Source: Spirochaetales bacterium
GTDB lineage: Bacteria > Spirochaetota > Spirochaetia > Sphaerochaetales > Sphaerochaetaceae
Direction of reading: 5' to 3'
Length of the DNA: 41,398 bases
Assembly (NCBI GenBank): GCA_012728215.1
Contig: JAAYFO010000046.1
Span: forward strand, 1-41,398
Shown here: positions 31,438 through 40,110 of the stretch, in pieces
How the letters are laid out: every line of letters begins with the position of its first letter
How positions within the stretch are numbered: the first letter of the stretch is position 1
Notes under the pieces: model-generated
What the model saw: only the letters and a program-made list of their open reading frames with translations
Told to the model about the DNA's origin: nothing
Database searches by the model: none
Translations under genes and position numbers: made by a program

Positions 31438-32592
31438 ATGAAATCTGATACTGTCTATATGGACAACAATGCCACGACATGCATGGCGCCTGAAGTGATT
31501 GATGGAATGCATGAGGCAGAGAAAATATATGGAAATGCATCAAGCATGCACCAAAGAGGACGTGAAGCAGCGGCTTTAGTCGGTTTATCCAGAGAGTCGG
31601 TGGCCAGGTTGCTTGGATGTGATGCAGATGAGGTGATATTCAACAGTGGAGCCACCGAGTCAAACAATGCGGTATTCAATATTGCAAGACATCTGATTGC
31701 ACTCAAGGGTGGAAAGATCGTCACGACAACCATCGAACATCCTGCAATAATCGAGACCGTCAAATATCTGAGAACCGAAGGAGTCAGAGTAGATCTTGCT
31801 GAAGTTGACCCCGAAGGCATTGTGAAGATCGATCAGCTTGAAAAGCTTGTCGATGACGATACTGTCCTGGTTTCGGTGATGATGGGCAACAATGAAAGCG
31901 GTGCCATTCAGAATGTCATGGAGGCATGTCGTATCGCCCACAGCCATGGTGCATTGTTTCATACCGATGCCACCCAGGCAATTGGAAAGATGAATATTGA
32001 TTTCAACAAGTCGGCTTTTGACTACATGAGTCTTTCTGCACACAAGTTCTACGGTCCAAAGGGAGTAGGTTGTCTCATCGTCAAAAAGGGTGCTCCCCTG
32101 TTTCCTCTGATGCATGGTGGTCATCAGGAAAATGGAATAAGACCAGGCACTTACAATACTCAGGCAATCTACGGCATGGGAATTGCCGCCGATCTGGCTG
32201 CAAGGAACCTCGATGACGAGATTCAAAGACTATGGGAGATGAGGGAAGCCTTGAGGAAGGGAATTGAGGAAAGAATTGAAGATGTCGTGATCAACGGAAG
32301 TCAGGAGCATTGCCTTCCTGGAACTTTGAACGTCTCATTTCCAAGAGCAGAGGGTGAGTCGATTCTTCTCATGCTTGATCTGAAGGGAGTTGAAGTATCC
32401 ACAGGCAGTGCCTGTGCAACAGGATCGCTTGAGCCGAGCTATGTGCTGATGGCGACTGGAATGGATGTCGAACTGGCCCATGGTTCTATTAGATTCAGCC
32501 TTGGCCGATACAACACTATGGAGGATGTCCAGTATGTTCTGGATGTACTTCCTCCAATTATCAGGAATCTAAGGGAGATGTCTACAAGATGA
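31438..32592 (+). CDS. nifS: Cysteine desulfurase (NifS/IscS type)
   Basis: 384 residues. PLP-binding Lys203 lies in SAHKFYGPKG and catalytic Cys326 in STGSACATGS, the loop form of class I (IscS/NifS) desulfurases. YMDNNATT at the N-terminus and GATESNN are also typical. It takes sulfur from cysteine for cluster assembly. SD AGAGG precedes ATG 31438. The stop overlaps the start of the NifU-like gene (ATGA), so sulfur donor and scaffold are made together. It is separate from the sufCB pair at 2670-4363, which lacks its own desulfurase and may depend on this one. Confidence 0.93.
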   Translation: MKSDTVYMDNNATTCMAPEVIDGMHEAEKIYGNASSMHQRGREAAALVGLSRESVARLLGCDADEVIFNSGATESNNAVFNIARHLIALKGGKIVTTTIEHPAIIETVKYLRTEGVRVDLAEVDPEGIVKIDQLEKLVDDDTVLVSVMMGNNESGAIQNVMEACRIAHSHGALFHTDATQAIGKMNIDFNKSAFDYMSLSAHKFYGPKGVGCLIVKKGAPLFPLMHGGHQENGIRPGTYNTQAIYGMGIAADLAARNLDDEIQRLWEMREALRKGIEERIEDVVINGSQEHCLPGTLNVSFPRAEGESILLMLDLKGVEVSTGSACATGSLEPSYVLMATGMDVELAHGSIRFSLGRYNTMEDVQYVLDVLPPIIRNLREMSTR

Positions 32593-33206
32593 GTGATTTC
32601 AAGAGTTTCATGACAGATTGGGTATATACGGATACAGTCAAGGACCATTTCATCAATCCAAGAAACATATGGAGAAAGGAAGATGAATTCGAGCCTGATG
32701 GATTTGGCGAAGTCGGGTCCCTTGCCTGTGGCGACCAGATGAGAGTCGGAATCAAGGTTGCGGATGGAAAGATTTCTGATATCCGTTGGCTCACATATGG
32801 ATGTGCCTCAGCTATTGCAAGTACTTCAATGATGAGTGAGATGGTAAAAGGAATGACGCTTGCCGAAGCGTATGCCATTACACCTGCGATGATTACAAAC
32901 AAACTCGGAGGACTTCCTGAGCACAAGTTTCATTGTTCCGTTCTAGGTGACAAGGCCCTTCGAGCTGCAATCGATGACTACCTTGAATCCACAGGACAGG
33001 AAAATCCCTTCAAGGGACATGTCGCCAAGATTGTATGTGAATGCAAGGGTGTCAATGATCAGCAGATAGAAGAGCTTGTGAAGACTGACAAGGTTGCAAA
33101 TCTTCAACAGCTGATGGAACTCACAGGCTTGGGTACAGGCTGCGGAAAGTGCAAGGCAGAAGCAGAAAGGCTGATAGCAGAATTCAGACACCTGTATGGG
33201 AAATAG
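32589..33206 (+). CDS. nifU: NifU-like scaffold (IscU domain plus BFD-type 2Fe-2S domain)
   Basis: 205 residues. The N-terminal IscU domain has its three cluster-building cysteines, Cys47 (ACGD, with the adjacent Asp49), Cys72 (YGCASA) and Cys116 (HCSVLG). The middle NifU/BFD domain has a permanent [2Fe-2S] site at Cys150, 152, 185 and 188 (CECKG and GCGKC). The third, Nfu-type C-terminal domain of full NifU is absent; the protein ends 17 residues after the last cysteine. It overlaps nifS by four bases. The pair is a compact house-keeping Fe-S system common in anaerobes rather than evidence of nitrogen fixation. Confidence 0.92.
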   Translation: MSDFKSFMTDWVYTDTVKDHFINPRNIWRKEDEFEPDGFGEVGSLACGDQMRVGIKVADGKISDIRWLTYGCASAIASTSMMSEMVKGMTLAEAYAITPAMITNKLGGLPEHKFHCSVLGDKALRAAIDDYLESTGQENPFKGHVAKIVCECKGVNDQQIEELVKTDKVANLQQLMELTGLGTGCGKCKAEAERLIAEFRHLYGK

Positions 33207-33651: not shown

Positions 33652-35325
33652 CTAGTCATCAAATTCACTTCCTCCGATGAACTCTCTCAACAGAGAGTCC
33701 TTGGGTACGAGCGAAGATTGGATCGGATGGACATTTCCTAGAATCTTGAGCAGCCTTCTTGCTGTAGTGTAGTATTCCTCATTTGATGGCTTGACCATTT
33801 TCAGAAGGGGCACGGCGAATCGTGCCAGAACGGCGAGTTCATAGTCCAGGGCACTGTTGAGCATGATGTCGGCGTTGTTCTGGTATGGAAAGATGTATCT
33901 CTGTGCGCCATCCTGAACGGAAGGCCACATCTTCAATGTCTCAAGTGCATTGGTGTCTCTGGTCCTTGCATCACGTACCAGACGGCGGAGAAGCCGGTTG
34001 TCAGTTGTAGACAATCTGGTATGGTCATCGAGGTTGATCTGCGTAAGGGCGGAAATGTAAATCCTATATATTGAATCATCCGTGAAGTCTGGAAGCAGCT
34101 GAGGATTCAGTCCATGGATTCCTTCCACGACAATTATGCTGCTCTGGCTTAGGACAGATGGCTTTTCGTCGAATGACCTTCCATGCTTGTTGAATCCATA
34201 ATGAGGCAGTCTCACTTGTTTCCCTTCCATCAGATCCGCCATGTTTTCTCTGAACAGATCCAGATCCAATGCTTCAAGCGCTTCGTAGTCTGGAGTCCCG
34301 TCATCCAGCTTCGGGGTGAGTTCCTTGGACAAATAATAGTTATCCAGAGATATTCTCAATGCATCGTGTCCCAGCATCTTGAGCTGTATGCAAAGCTTGT
34401 TGGCAAACGTTGTCTTACCGGATGAAGAAGGTCCTGAAATCAAAACTGTCTTAACCGGTCTGGAGTCGATCTCATCTGCGATTGAAGCAATCTTTCGTGC
34501 TTGAAGTGACTCGCTTAACCGAATATATTCTGAAATCTTCTTCTCGTCATAGCATATCTCATCAAGCTTTCCTACGGACTGAACTCCCAGAATCTTTCCC
34601 CACCTCTTGTATTCGGTGAAGACTGAGAAGAGAAGCTGACTGTCCTTGAACGGCCGTATCTCAGTGATGTTTGAGGATCTTGGGTACCGGAGGAGCATTC
34701 CTCGATCTCCATAGGGCATAAGTTCCCAGCAGGTGATGACCGAGGTGTTCGGAACGATCACTTCCATGCTGATGTCATAATAATCTCCGATTCGATAGCA
34801 CTCAACATCAGGATCGTTGCTGTACTTAAGAAGAGCAACGGTGTCTTCATTACCCATTTTGTTGAAATATTTCAGTGCATCTTCATATGATACGAAATTG
34901 CGTTCTATTGGAAGACCTAGTTTTACTATTTCCTTCATCTTGGCTGATATATCTGAAATGGTACGTTCTGTGGTGACATAGCAATCATCGAATGTGAAAT
35001 AGTATCCGTCGCCAAGAGAGTGACAAATCACGATATGACGTTTTGGGAAAAGAATCTTGATTGCGTATGTGAGAAGAAAACAGATGCTTGTCCTGTATAT
35101 CCTCTTGCCAAGCTCAGAGAAAAGGTTGACGATTTCCAGATCGAATGAATGGTTCAGACGGGCAGAAAGTGGAAGAATTTCATTGTTGGCCAATCCTGCA
35201 ACAACAGGATTGTCATTATAGCAAAGGCTTTTGACTGACTCTGGGTCGTTCGCTTCTAGAAATTCACCGATGGAACAGTATTTGTCTGCCTGATACTTTT
35301 TGCCATGGTAGCTGATAGTTATCAA
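33652..35325 (-). CDS. Nucleoside (uridine-type) kinase with TGS/tRNA-synthetase-like N-terminus
   Basis: 557 residues. Residues 1-60 form a TGS domain, about 60-230 resemble the threonyl-tRNA-synthetase second additional domain (HIVICHSLGDGYYFTF), and from about 285 a phosphoribulokinase/uridine-kinase domain follows with P-loop ISGPSSSGKTTF (about 294-305) and SLDNYYLS. Proteins with this layout are annotated as nucleoside kinases and fit the salvage theme (uridine/cytidine to UMP/CMP). The start is TTG at 35325-35323 with a perfect AGGAGG (35337-35332) six bases upstream; no ATG fits the TGS N-terminus. It ends ten bases from the convergent XRE gene. Confidence 0.85.
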   Translation of the reverse strand: MITISYHGKKYQADKYCSIGEFLEANDPESVKSLCYNDNPVVAGLANNEILPLSARLNHSFDLEIVNLFSELGKRIYRTSICFLLTYAIKILFPKRHIVICHSLGDGYYFTFDDCYVTTERTISDISAKMKEIVKLGLPIERNFVSYEDALKYFNKMGNEDTVALLKYSNDPDVECYRIGDYYDISMEVIVPNTSVITCWELMPYGDRGMLLRYPRSSNITEIRPFKDSQLLFSVFTEYKRWGKILGVQSVGKLDEICYDEKKISEYIRLSESLQARKIASIADEIDSRPVKTVLISGPSSSGKTTFANKLCIQLKMLGHDALRISLDNYYLSKELTPKLDDGTPDYEALEALDLDLFRENMADLMEGKQVRLPHYGFNKHGRSFDEKPSVLSQSSIIVVEGIHGLNPQLLPDFTDDSIYRIYISALTQINLDDHTRLSTTDNRLLRRLVRDARTRDTNALETLKMWPSVQDGAQRYIFPYQNNADIMLNSALDYELAVLARFAVPLLKMVKPSNEEYYTTARRLLKILGNVHPIQSSLVPKDSLLREFIGGSEFDD

Positions 35326-35383
35326 AGTGTGCCTCCTGATTGATTATACTACATACAATCTTTTTTACAAAACGATTTTCAGC

Positions 35384-35389
35384 TATACT
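35384..35389 (+). promoter_or_regulatory. -10 element giving a leaderless yfcE-type mRNA
   Basis: TATACT (35384-35389) ends exactly six bases before ATG 35396, with no SD between. The -35 is only a T-run (35361-35366) at 17-base spacing. Confidence 0.4.
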
Positions 35390-35395
35390 TGTTTC

Positions 35396-35923
35396 ATGAG
35401 TGTTACAATTATCCTCTCTGATGTTCATGGAGATGAAACCAGTCTCAATGCCGTTCTTTTGAAAGCGGAAAAAGCAGATGCGTCGGGAATCCTCTTTGCA
35501 GGTGATCTTGGCCTTGCCTCACCGGGAATCATGATGCTTCTCAAATACAGGAATATTCCGTTTGTGTGCGTCAGGGGAAACTGCGACAGCCCGTGGGATT
35601 ACCAGGATGCATCTTTGCCGATAGCTCCTCTTTACAGATTGATGACTGCCTGTGGGCGGTCAGTCTTCATCACCCATGGTGATCGCTACTGCTGTCCTGA
35701 AGACGTAGGGCTTCCTGCTGAGAAGGGAATGATAGTGATCACAGGTCATACCCATGTGCCTGATCTCTCATTTCACGATGACATATACTGGCTGAATCCT
35801 GGATCAATCAGCAGACCAAGAGGCAGGTCAAAGGCGAGCTATGCAATCATTGATGATCGGAGCATAAGGATACTGGGGCTTGAGGATGACTCATGCATCG
35901 CCTCTATCGAATTGAATCCCTGA
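35396..35923 (+). CDS. YfcE/MJ0936-family metallophosphodiesterase
   Basis: 175 residues. Metal motifs in order: SDVHGD (residues 8-13), GDLG, RGNCDSPWD, THGDRY and GHTHVP with PGSISRPRG. All match the YfcE/MJ0936 calcineurin-like phosphodiesterases, which hydrolyse phosphodiesters such as bis-pNPP or cyclic dinucleotide products; the physiological substrate is unknown. The frame opens with GTG at 35327, but the family start is ATG 35396, which has no SD and probably uses a leaderless transcript. Its 3' end overlaps the convergent AOR-like gene by 20 bases. Confidence 0.9.
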   Translation: MSVTIILSDVHGDETSLNAVLLKAEKADASGILFAGDLGLASPGIMMLLKYRNIPFVCVRGNCDSPWDYQDASLPIAPLYRLMTACGRSVFITHGDRYCCPEDVGLPAEKGMIVITGHTHVPDLSFHDDIYWLNPGSISRPRGRSKASYAIIDDRSIRILGLEDDSCIASIELNP

Positions 35924-37718
35924 ACCTTTCACGCTGATAGAATTCAAGAAGCTTGATGAATTCCAATACTTGTGGACGGGCCAATGCACATGCGGTATCT
36001 GTCTGAAAATGGGATGGCATCTGAGGCTCTCCTGTCGATATGACCTTGTTGATTCCGCTTTCCAGCAGATAACAGGCTTTGCCAAGATCTCGGAATGCAG
36101 TGGTGCGGACTTTCTTTCCTGTCACCTCTCTCATCCGTCTGGAAAGTATTGATGGATTGAAGAGTCTTAGAAAAACCGAAGGAAAAAGATATGAGAAGAA
36201 GCTTCCGAAGCTTTCTCTTTCGCACATCATAGGCCCAAGTAGAAGATGGGAAAAGCCTGCGGATTCCAGTCCCTCTGCAAGATTGTTGTTCCATACTATG
36301 AACTTAGCCAAACGGCGAGGCTTGTCATCATACAATGGCATGAGTGGTTCGCACGGACATGTGATCTGGTATCCAAAGTAATCTTCGATTGACATTGATC
36401 TGTATCCACGATAGTCATAAGGTCCGCATTCCAGCCCTTTTATCTGATACAGATGATCTGAATCGAAGAGATTGCTTTCAATTGTTGCCTTTGCACCAAG
36501 TGCCATCAGGCCATAGAGCTTTCGGCCACGTGGGTTTGCAAGCCGATTGATTATTCTGAGAATGTTTCTTTTGGAAAGATCGTCCAGTTCAGGGTAATCT
36601 TCCATTTCTCCGTCCTTGCGTCTGCTCAAAGCCCAGCCGATGATATTCCCTGCAGAGACCGGGTCCAATCCCAGTTCAATGCATTCGGATATCCATGGTT
36701 GAATCTTTGTTATGTCAAAGCATCCAAGATTTGCCCCAAGCATCGAAAGCTGTGAGTATGGGAATTCTTCTGAGCCGTGGGAAAGAAGCGGACTGTCCAG
36801 TGTCCTTCTGCGGTAGATATCGGTTTTTATGTCTCTCTTGGATAAGAGGTAGAATGCTCTCGGATCGGTTCGATAGTTGAAGTTGCAGATAGGAATGAAA
36901 CCTGCATGGGATCCTTTCACCATCATGTTGAATTCATTTTTGCCAAGATAGCAGCTGGACTTTGTCATGGCTGTCATTCTTTCAAGGGCTTTCATCCGCT
37001 TCTGCTTCTTTTCAAAAACCTTTGTCTTCAATGGAACGGAGAGCTTTTCAGAATCCGGGGTGAAGACAATGGCCTTCAGATTCTTCTTCATCATCAGCAT
37101 TCCCAGGCCGCCTCTTCCCAGGACATTGCCTTCGCATACCGGTGCCGCGAAAGGGGCTCCGTTGTCAGCGGCCGGGCCTGTGACTATTATGCACTGATCA
37201 TCGGATCCTCGCAGCTGGGCATCCACAGCACTGGTAGTCATCCCGCCCAGTCCTTCTTCGATTCTTATGCTGTGATTGTCGCTGATTGATATGGTGACGG
37301 TCCTGCTGCTGGAATTAAGGATGATGATCACATCCAATCCCAATGTCCGCATGCAGTTTCCAGCTCTGCACATTGATCCGAATACGGTAAAACGTCCGGT
37401 CACAGGACTTTGAAATGCTATTGAAAAACAATCTGAATACGGGGTGAGTGTATTGTTCATAGGGCTGGAAGCAATGATTATGGGATTTTCCACAGGATCG
37501 CTTCCTTCTGAGTATTCAGCGAACAATCTGGTGGCAAGTGCCCTCCCGCCGATATAACGGTTCATGATTCTATCTGAAATCTTCAATGGGACCATTGCTC
37601 CAGTCTTCAGGTTTATCTCCAGGGCATTGGGAATCGGAGAATTTTCAAAATCCACATTGAAAAATGGTCTTTGATGCTGATCTACAGCATTTGCAAAGTC
37701 GAATTTTCCTGATTTCAT
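35904..37718 (-). CDS. Aldehyde ferredoxin oxidoreductase-family protein lacking the Fe-S motif
   Basis: 604 residues, AOR length. Clear AOR landmarks: YIGGRALATRLF (55-66), TGPAADNGAPFA, GRGGLGMLMMKKNLKAIVF (near 199-217), PYSQLSMLGANLG and LGLDPVSAGNIIGWAL. AORs oxidise aldehydes with a tungsten- or molybdenum-pterin plus a [4Fe-4S] cluster held by CxxCxxxC and a distant Cys. Here the stretch between IPICNFNYR and the LGANLG motif (about 278-331), where CxxCxxxC belongs, has no cysteine. Only a late Cys (DLGKACYLLESG) remains. An extra 28 or so residues precede the usual start. The SD is weak. It may be cluster-less or have a changed function; no ferredoxin partner gene is adjacent. Confidence 0.8.
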   Translation of the reverse strand: MKSGKFDFANAVDQHQRPFFNVDFENSPIPNALEINLKTGAMVPLKISDRIMNRYIGGRALATRLFAEYSEGSDPVENPIIIASSPMNNTLTPYSDCFSIAFQSPVTGRFTVFGSMCRAGNCMRTLGLDVIIILNSSSRTVTISISDNHSIRIEEGLGGMTTSAVDAQLRGSDDQCIIVTGPAADNGAPFAAPVCEGNVLGRGGLGMLMMKKNLKAIVFTPDSEKLSVPLKTKVFEKKQKRMKALERMTAMTKSSCYLGKNEFNMMVKGSHAGFIPICNFNYRTDPRAFYLLSKRDIKTDIYRRRTLDSPLLSHGSEEFPYSQLSMLGANLGCFDITKIQPWISECIELGLDPVSAGNIIGWALSRRKDGEMEDYPELDDLSKRNILRIINRLANPRGRKLYGLMALGAKATIESNLFDSDHLYQIKGLECGPYDYRGYRSMSIEDYFGYQITCPCEPLMPLYDDKPRRLAKFIVWNNNLAEGLESAGFSHLLLGPMMCERESFGSFFSYLFPSVFLRLFNPSILSRRMREVTGKKVRTTAFRDLGKACYLLESGINKVISTGEPQMPSHFQTDTACALARPQVLEFIKLLEFYQRERFRDSIR

Positions 37719-37881: not shown

Positions 37882-38802
37882 ATGGAAAAGAGAAATTTCA
37901 CCTGTAGCGATTCTCGGGTACTCGCTTATCGTGTCTGGTTGCCAAGAAAAGGCGTCAGGATAATTGCCGCTGTTCATATCCTTCATGGTATGGCAGAGCA
38001 TGGTGCAAGGTATGATGAATTTGCCAAGTTCCTTGCTGCAAGAAGCATTGTTGTGGTTGCCCAAGACCACCGAGGACACGGTGAGTCCATTGAGAATGGG
38101 GAAAAGGGCTTTTTCCTTGACTCCAACGGCTGGCAAAGAGTCGCTGATGATGCGTTTGAGATTTCCAGCAGTATTGCAAACGAGTTTCCAGGCATACCGC
38201 TTTTTCTGATGGGGCATAGCATGGGAAGCTTTTTGGCTCGAACGGTCATGGTCCAGCACCCTGAGCTCTATGATGGCGTGATCATCATGGGCACTGGAGC
38301 AGGGCAGGGACTTATTGGAAAAATCGGCAAGCTGATTGCCCTACATGAAATCAAGAAGAATGGTCCTCATAAGCCTTCCGAGAAGATGAACAATCTGAGC
38401 TTCTCGAGCTATAACAAGAAGTTTGAACCAGCGACGACTGGATTTGAATGGCTTTCTCGTGATCCAGAGGCAGTGAAGAAGTATGTCGATGACCCCTTGT
38501 GCGGATTTGTCTGCACCGGTGAATTCTATAATGACATCATCGATGGCATTGCTTTTGCAAATTCGAACGCGAATGCCGAAAAGCTTCCCAAGGATCTGCC
38601 TTTGCTTATCATCAGTGGCACAGATGACCCTGTTGGAGGTTTCTCCAAGGGAGTCAGGAAAGTATATCAGATGTACAGCGACTGCGGATTGGCCGATGTG
38701 ACACTGAAGCTAGTCGAAGGTGCAAGGCACGAATTGCTTAATGAGACTGACAGGAAGGATACCTTCCAGTTCCTTCTTGGTTGGATAAAGGATCATATCT
38801 AG
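37882..38802 (+). CDS. Alpha/beta hydrolase, monoacylglycerol lipase/lysophospholipase-like
   Basis: 306 residues. VHILHGMAEHGARY near the N-terminus (oxyanion region), DHRGHGES, the nucleophile elbow GHSMGS (Ser113), a later Asp in ISGTDDPVG and the final His in GARHELLNE make up the serine-hydrolase triad, as in PldB/monoglyceride lipase-type enzymes. It lacks a signal peptide, so it is cytosolic, probably cleaving lysophospholipids or monoacylglycerols. The SD is poor (GGGG about nine bases upstream). The YihY gene starts three bases after its stop, so the two form an operon that could act on membrane lipids. Confidence 0.88.
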   Translation: MEKRNFTCSDSRVLAYRVWLPRKGVRIIAAVHILHGMAEHGARYDEFAKFLAARSIVVVAQDHRGHGESIENGEKGFFLDSNGWQRVADDAFEISSSIANEFPGIPLFLMGHSMGSFLARTVMVQHPELYDGVIIMGTGAGQGLIGKIGKLIALHEIKKNGPHKPSEKMNNLSFSSYNKKFEPATTGFEWLSRDPEAVKKYVDDPLCGFVCTGEFYNDIIDGIAFANSNANAEKLPKDLPLLIISGTDDPVGGFSKGVRKVYQMYSDCGLADVTLKLVEGARHELLNETDRKDTFQFLLGWIKDHI

Positions 38803-38805
38803 AAG

Positions 38806-40110
38806 ATGTGCCCCAAGAAGAATCGGCCGAAAACCAACATCTCATGGTCTGAGTTGTCGGGAAGCTCTCCCAGGATGACTCTCAAGTATTTCGTTTCTTC
38901 GTTGGCTGCACGCTATTCCAAGGATAATATTTCCATTCTTGCAAGTGGAATGGTCTATTCGTCTCTGATAGCTTTGGTTCCGTGCATTACATTCTTTGTC
39001 ATGGTGTTCGGGGCCTTGGGCGTGCTGGATCCATTTCTGGATGCCCTGAGCAATCTTCTTGTCGAGGTATTTGGCAACAGGACTGGTGGAGCCCTTTCAA
39101 CTACAATAGATAGTCTGACCATGAATGCAGGTTCGCTCGGAGCATTTGGAATGGTGTCGTTTCTCGTCACATTTGTTCTTCTCATAAACAAGCTTTGGAT
39201 GGTGATAAACCGAATATATCGGACCAGCATGGAAAAGAACCTCTTCAAGCGGTTCCTTACTTTTCTAGTATCGGTGATTATTGGAACTATCCTCATGGGA
39301 CTTCTGCTTGGAATGAAGACGAAATTCAGTGGATGGTACAATACGGTTTTTGGATTGACACCGCTTGCACCTTGGCAGAAGATTCTGGAAAATGTCGCAA
39401 ACAAGACTTTGATATGGGCTCTGATTCTGATTCTGATGATGGCGATTCCAAATACGACTGTGCGGTTCATGAGTGCTTTGATAAGTTCGTTTGGTGTGAC
39501 GCTGGCACTTACCGTTCTTGATCTGGCTTTTTCTTTTGTGTCACGACAAATGGTAAGCTATTCGATTATCTATGGTTCGTTGAGTGTCGTCTTCATCTTT
39601 CTTCTTTGGCTTTACATCCTGTGGGTTCTGATTCTTGTAGGAGTCGAAGCATGCTTCATCCTTCAGTTCAAGCCACAGTCAGAGATGAAGGTTTCTGCCG
39701 GAAGTCCTCTCAATCAGATATCCAATGTCATCAACATGATGACTTATATCGGAGATTGCTATGTGCAAGGTCTTGGGGCAGTGACAATCGAGGAATTGGA
39801 GAGAGGACTTCTGATCACAAACATTCATCTTACAAACGACATCAGGCTGATGGAGAATGCCGGACTGTTGATCAGAGCCGGAAACAATGGCGATAGATTT
39901 GTACCGGGCAAGCCGATTTCGGAAATCAGAGTCTCAGAGATCATTCAAGCTGTGTTTGGCAGCGCTGAGGGTTACGAGAAACACCAAGCAGGTGCAAGGA
40001 TTGCCAACATGTTCCGTGAAGGCGGAATAGGCAATCTTGACGACTTGACACTTGAAGATATTCTGAGAAAAGATCAAAATAACAGTAATTTGGATTCTCA
40101 GAGCAATTGA
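38806..40110 (+). CDS. YihY/BrkB-family membrane protein with C-terminal regulatory-type domain
   Basis: 434 residues. Residues about 40-290 contain six hydrophobic segments and the family blocks SILASGMVYSSLIALVP, LLINKLWMVINRIY and FIFLLWLYILWVLILVGVE, as in YihY/BrkB (once called RNase BN). The function of the family is unsettled; transport or lipid-related roles are proposed. After the membrane part, about 140 residues form a soluble domain with a helical pattern like a winged helix (VTIEELERGLLITNIHLTND, then MENAGLLIRAGNNGDRFVPG). ATG 38806 is three bases after the hydrolase stop. Confidence 0.85.
   Translation: MCPKKNRPKTNISWSELSGSSPRMTLKYFVSSLAARYSKDNISILASGMVYSSLIALVPCITFFVMVFGALGVLDPFLDALSNLLVEVFGNRTGGALSTTIDSLTMNAGSLGAFGMVSFLVTFVLLINKLWMVINRIYRTSMEKNLFKRFLTFLVSVIIGTILMGLLLGMKTKFSGWYNTVFGLTPLAPWQKILENVANKTLIWALILILMMAIPNTTVRFMSALISSFGVTLALTVLDLAFSFVSRQMVSYSIIYGSLSVVFIFLLWLYILWVLILVGVEACFILQFKPQSEMKVSAGSPLNQISNVINMMTYIGDCYVQGLGAVTIEELERGLLITNIHLTNDIRLMENAGLLIRAGNNGDRFVPGKPISEIRVSEIIQAVFGSAEGYEKHQAGARIANMFREGGIGNLDDLTLEDILRKDQNNSNLDSQSN

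Follow-up and report, generated by a model that had tools for sequence, protein, structure and literature searches.

The AOR-like gene and its neighbourhood

The window, by which we mean the whole 41,398-nucleotide stretch of DNA analysed here, carries on its minus strand an open reading frame with an ATG start (35904-37718) that encodes a 604-residue protein resembling aldehyde ferredoxin oxidoreductase (AOR). This gene and the conserved genes around it are listed below, with the basis of each assignment in brackets.

31438..33206, plus strand: class-V aminotransferase (IscS-type), 24 loci, and NifU_N + BFD protein, 19 loci; conserved neighbours (locus comparison)
33652..35325, minus strand: uridine-kinase-family protein, conserved neighbour at 33 of the 41 loci examined (locus comparison)
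35327..35923, plus strand: calcineurin-like phosphoesterase, conserved neighbour at 27 loci, convergent with the AOR-like gene (locus comparison)
35904..37718, minus strand: AOR-fold protein without cofactor sites, 604 aa (Pfam AFOR_N/AFOR_C, PDB 1b25/1aor, full-length family profile)
37882..38802, plus strand: alpha/beta hydrolase, divergent conserved neighbour at 31 loci (locus comparison)
38806..40110, plus strand: BrkB-family membrane protein, conserved neighbour at 29 loci (locus comparison)

Across much of the family Sphaerochaetaceae the locus reads galactokinase-like, SurE, IscS-type, NifU, uridine kinase, AOR-like, phosphoesterase, alpha/beta hydrolase and BrkB, and this common chromosomal neighbourhood identifies the AOR-like genes as positional orthologues. 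The AOR-like and phosphoesterase genes overlap tail to tail by 20 bp (35904-35923) and are convergent in most family loci. At one locus (L125, G123:C5), the AOR-like gene is split among three ORFs.

Pfam searches of the window protein returned AFOR_N at residues 32-220 (123.3 bits, E = 1.4e-35) and AFOR_C at residues 316-445 only (55.8 bits, E = 5.6e-15), and its top PDB relatives were 1b25 (E = 3e-28) and 1aor (E = 9e-27). A profile of 28 family orthologues aligned with 1aor over residues 8-584 (E = 5.7e-93), and the window protein itself covered positions 3-583 of the family profile with 632 bits. With both AFOR domains present and homology to 1AOR along the full length, the protein belongs to the AOR/WOR family by descent and fold. 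No second AFOR_C match was found in the window's genome, a 1.76-Mb draft that is 97% complete. An AF2 model built from an alignment only two sequences deep was unusable, with a pLDDT of 32.8. A single-sequence search of the genome contigs returned only one relative, as expected for such a query.

Cofactor sites and cofactor synthesis genes

The residues discussed in this section lie at the following positions, all on the minus strand and all placed by alignment.

37428..37430, minus strand: C97, aligned with PfAOR Arg76
36780..36803, minus strand: CxxCxxxC site without cysteine (T306, S309, S313), residues 306-313
36663..36680, minus strand: IELGLD, residues 347-352, relic of the pterin motif DxxGLD, with Asp338 replaced by Ile347
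36255..36410, minus strand: residues 437-488, about 11 shorter than PfAOR 430-492; the loop with catalytic His448 and Lys450 is missing
36249..36251, minus strand: S490, aligned with the fourth cluster cysteine, Cys494

A preliminary description of this DNA had remarked that the region expected to hold three of the four cluster cysteines contains none. The alignment, which included 1AOR and whose 1AOR numbering was verified residue by residue, bears this out: the positions of C288, C291 and C295 in PfAOR are taken by T306, S309 and S313, and the fourth cysteine, C494, is missing as well (S490), so that neither the CxxCxxxC motif nor the C494 that a [4Fe-4S] cluster requires is present. Two genus-mates are likewise free of cysteine at these four positions (I/T/S/S and S/A/S/S), so the loss is no sequencing error. 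Homologues sharing the loss, which the same description had proposed seeking, also occur elsewhere in the family: among 112 aligned orthologues, 26 have none of the four cysteines, 55 have CxxCxxxC without C494, and 8 have all four. On a tree built without those columns the CxxCxxxC state changed seven times; judging from these sequences, the cluster cysteines have been lost several times within Sphaerochaetaceae.

In the 1AOR structure, Arg76 and Asp338/Asp489 are among the residues of the tungsten cofactor site, and Asp338 is the aspartate that contacts the pterin. In the window protein R76 is replaced by C97, R182 by N, T243 by E, E313 by S, D338 by I347 and D489 by E (PfAOR numbering), and E311 falls in an alignment gap. 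The segment corresponding to R430-G492 is 52 residues long versus 63 in PfAOR, and what it lacks is the loop that bears H448 and K450. The conserved second shell of AORs consists of Thr243, Glu313, Tyr427 and His448 (PMC12096430, PMC13328260); Y427 is the sole survivor of the second-shell residues listed, and the set that marks the W-bis-pterin site and its second shell (R76, T243, E313, D338, Y427, H448) is not retained. The earlier view that the pterin-binding segments are recognisable therefore holds for G350-L351-D352 of the DxxGLD motif; it does not hold for the aspartate at position 338, which is isoleucine, or for most other residues of the tungsten cofactor site. Within the family, H448 is missing in 112 of 112 aligned orthologues, and R76 and D/N338 are almost never retained. 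This pattern of conservation indicates that loss of the pterin site is older than loss of the cysteines and is common to the whole of Sphaerochaetaceae.

Tungsten-cofactor genes elsewhere in the genome, a further check suggested in the preliminary description, were looked for with MoaC and MoeA as markers. The MoaA C-terminal domain (PF06463) was set aside for this purpose, since even class genomes with unmistakable AORs and MoaC/MoeA gave only partial matches to it. The window's own 97%-complete draft genome yielded neither MoaC nor MoeA, and by these two markers it does not encode molybdopterin synthesis. Among 139 Sphaerochaetaceae genomes, MoaC is present in 11 and MoeA in 2; the pair occurs only in G063 (62% complete), where the orthologue was not matched, and the two genes together were found in none of the orthologue-bearing genomes. 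As a control, 20 genomes were tested for both genes, and the 12 with MoaC were the same 12 that have MoeA. Class relatives with ordinary AORs generally encode both. A MoaA-type gene and MoaC without MoeA, a partial molybdopterin pathway, were seen in G008, G011, G064, G066, G122, G123, G127, G128, G158 and G162.

In the class clade, at least seven AORs whose residues are intact lie in genomes where MoaC was not found (G052, G167, G177, G207, G193, G272, and L012 in G007), and MoeA was likewise not found in the MoaC-less class genomes with AORs where it was tested; a pathway gap in a draft genome is therefore, on its own, no proof of a cofactor-free protein. Extra AOR copies with the canonical cysteines (L014, L012, L045, L011) occur in G003, G007 and G031, which represent three family genera and in which MoaC and MoeA were not found; use of a salvaged cofactor is thus formally conceivable in those lineages. 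In G039 (L013/L140), a genome of another family without MoaC/MoeA, the AOR shows independent partial decay (R76L, E313D, H448F). Loss of the cofactor pathway may precede loss of the residues.

Descent, selection and probable function

By profile search, the orthologue is present in 131 of 139 Sphaerochaetaceae genomes, 71 of the 75 high-quality genomes and 20 of the 22 genera, usually as a single copy per genome. The family proteins are monophyletic (SH-aLRT 100), and their sister is a class clade with canonical residues, in a quick tree that has several long branches. Of the 21 closest class relatives (20 from other families, plus an additional copy from G007), 20 retain R76, 20 retain H448 and all 21 have the four cysteines. 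Identity between the window protein and most other family members is 17-29%. In close orthologue pairs from several genera, dN/dS was 0.05-0.10, and in cofactor-bearing class pairs it was 0.04-0.07; one near-identical pair, with hardly any changes to count, gave 0.30. For the window's own closest pair dS was saturated, with pN 0.23 versus pS 0.77.

A motif at residues 283-287 stands out in the family alignment.

36858..36872, minus strand: RTDPR motif, residues 283-287 (family alignment, R287 112/112, D285 108/112)

R287 is invariant in the 112 family orthologues, D285 is otherwise N, and G328, D435 and R437 are also invariant. R287 and D285 are missing from canonical AORs and present in a few class relatives; strict family specificity of the motif is ruled out, as L013 has RTDPR and L127 has RTDDR.

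We consider it likely that the AOR-like gene is a vertical descendant of a tungsten AOR that has lost its cofactors and is kept by strong purifying selection for a non-redox task. From the sequence changes, the missing synthesis genes, orthology and selection taken together, we strongly infer that in vivo it carries no cofactor. The preliminary description had reasoned that a tungsto-enzyme fold without its cluster would need another electron path or have a new function. The former is not supported: the W-bis-pterin site is lost too and MoaC and MoeA were not found, which probably leaves no redox centre that would need connecting. The latter is supported. In outline, the ancestor would have been an ordinary tungsten aldehyde oxidoreductase, inherited vertically, that lost its W-bis-pterin cofactor and, in the window's genus, the [4Fe-4S] cluster too. 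A small-ligand role is our guess: the cleft left empty where domain 1 faces domains 2/3 might bind a small, probably anionic ligand, contacted by the GRGG(L/V)G...KNxKA segment that once lined the phosphate/Mg end of the cofactor, by PxDxRG and by the newly fixed RTDPR. The protein could then serve in sensing, sequestration, scaffolding or a metal-free reaction.

Four other explanations were weighed against this one. The protein might be a redox-active metalloprotein with a rebuilt site, in which thiols near the old pocket (C117, C195, C346, C431, C454) bind another metal or cluster. All three members of the genus share C117, C195, C278, C346, C431, C454, C499 and C549, and in the alignment C117, C195, C346 and C431 are at most a few residues away from PfAOR N93, R182/A183, D338 and Y427; however, the cysteine content of 2.5% is ordinary for the window's proteins, and no more than 3-25% of family orthologues have any given one of the genus cysteines, the exception being C346 (59%), a cysteine that AORs ordinarily have. 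We regard a rebuilt site as unlikely. At the level of sequence, the ordinary cysteine content and the absence of family-wide conservation of these cysteines also speak against four cysteines from other positions converging at the cluster site, the outcome that the preliminary description had named as a refutation. It is very unlikely that the protein is a tungsten- or molybdenum-pterin enzyme with a substituted site whose cofactor is taken up from neighbours or comes from a pathway that went unrecognised. AORs of the class with intact sites, and some canonical copies, do occur in genomes without MoaC or MoeA, and orphan molybdoproteins are known (PMC6147048), but most cofactor-site residues of the window protein are gone, the His448 loop included, and MoaC/MoeA were not found in six single-contig family genomes (98-99% complete) that carry the orthologue.

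Strong divergence within the family (17-29% identity to most other members) and the split gene in G123 (L125) are what might be expected of a degenerating pseudogene, or of a relic with little constraint left on it. Against this, the frame is open in nearly all 131 genomes, position is conserved, R287, G328, D435 and R437 are invariant, and dN/dS values of 0.05-0.10 indicate that the gene is not a pseudogene; intact frames and these values rule one out for the lineages tested, and for the family as a whole we hold such decay to be barely credible. The least probable reading of all is membership of the BamB/YdhV branch, in which the usual second-shell residues are missing and metal is bound via an extra cysteine. 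The best NCBIfam match is indeed the YdhV model PRK09849, at 46 bits versus a cutoff of 868, and several second-shell residues are missing in both; E. coli YdhV, however, retains R76, H448 and the four cysteines of the cluster, none of the family proteins has a cysteine in the column of YdhV C336 (where the local alignment is poor), and the window's clade is sister to the class clade with canonical residues, in a tree without YdhV itself. Lacking the four cluster cysteines and the extra C336, the window protein was not assigned to YdhV/BamB.

The protein differs from known systems in several ways. Like AOR/WOR enzymes (PfAOR 1AOR, FOR 1B25), it has both Pfam domains, a full-length profile alignment, the G-L-D of the first pterin motif and a DPRG-type motif; unlike them, it lacks the four cluster cysteines and most tungsten-cofactor and second-shell residues, and its genome lacks MoaC/MoeA matches. 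All known AOR/WOR members are stated to hold a W- or Mo-bis-metallopterin (PMC12096430), and their cofactor ligands are described as varying very little (PMC13328260). YdhV and BamB share with it an AOR fold without several second-shell residues, whereas YdhV still has R76, H448 and the cysteines of the cluster and has acquired one more cysteine that ligates the metal; the window protein has not. It also resembles orphan molybdoproteins, Mo/W proteins in genomes without a Moco pathway, as enzyme-family proteins lacking their cofactor pathway; a comparative-genomic survey of them asked about metal independence and did not detect any sequence feature by which a form independent of Mo could be told (PMC6147048), whereas cofactor residues are visibly lost here, and the Sphaerochaetaceae clade plainly shows sequence marks of cofactor loss. 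Our search of the open-access literature brought up no description of Spirochaetes AOR proteins that lack the cluster or the cofactor. Intermediates that keep the cysteines with the pterin site lost, or keep three of the four cysteines, allow the loss of two cofactors from a single fold to be read step by step. An old metal enzyme appears to have been retained for a different job in nearly every member of Sphaerochaetaceae, and an annotation as "aldehyde ferredoxin oxidoreductase" in this family is probably no sign of aldehyde metabolism that depends on tungsten.

Alcohol dehydrogenases with lost metal ligands beside the gene

In genera g2, g6, g15, g17 and g21, a protein of about 170 aa and two Fe-ADH-family paralogues adjoin the AOR-like gene on the opposite strand; in the window's genus these genes are no longer at the locus. 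The Fe-ADH copies have lost the equivalents of D195/H199 and H277 (14 of 14 copies, 7 genomes), whereas the main Fe-ADH of class relatives has intact metal ligands in 11 of 11 cases. At L089-L093, L105 and L106, both paralogues lack all or nearly all Fe ligands, while for one of the two the class orthologues have the full set. The ~170-aa domain, for which no convincing Pfam match was found, is fused to the AOR C-terminus (L136, L142, L143, L144) or encoded adjacent to it across Spirochaetia; it was also noted at L131 and L089:9083-9637.

In the Spirochaetia AOR clade (L127-L146), AOR is linked or fused to the ~170-aa domain and an Fe-ADH. The tree places this clade as sister to the family proteins, and the same accessory genes survive beside the orthologue in some family genera. 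Those relatives, unlike the window protein, have a nearly full set of cofactor residues, and the metal ligands of their main ADH are in place. We see about an even chance that the AOR, the two Fe-ADH paralogues and the AOR-associated domain lost their metal sites together after loss of the tungsten-cofactor pathway, and that the AOR scaffold alone then became a core protein without cofactor, present almost throughout the family and with a new, non-redox role.

In g2, g4, g6, g17 and g21, the gene immediately downstream of the AOR-like one encodes a protein of about 460 aa (L090:5870-7252 and relatives, cluster 13). Searches with it gave no convincing Pfam match and no PDB match; it has a signal-peptide-like N-terminus and a beta-rich look.
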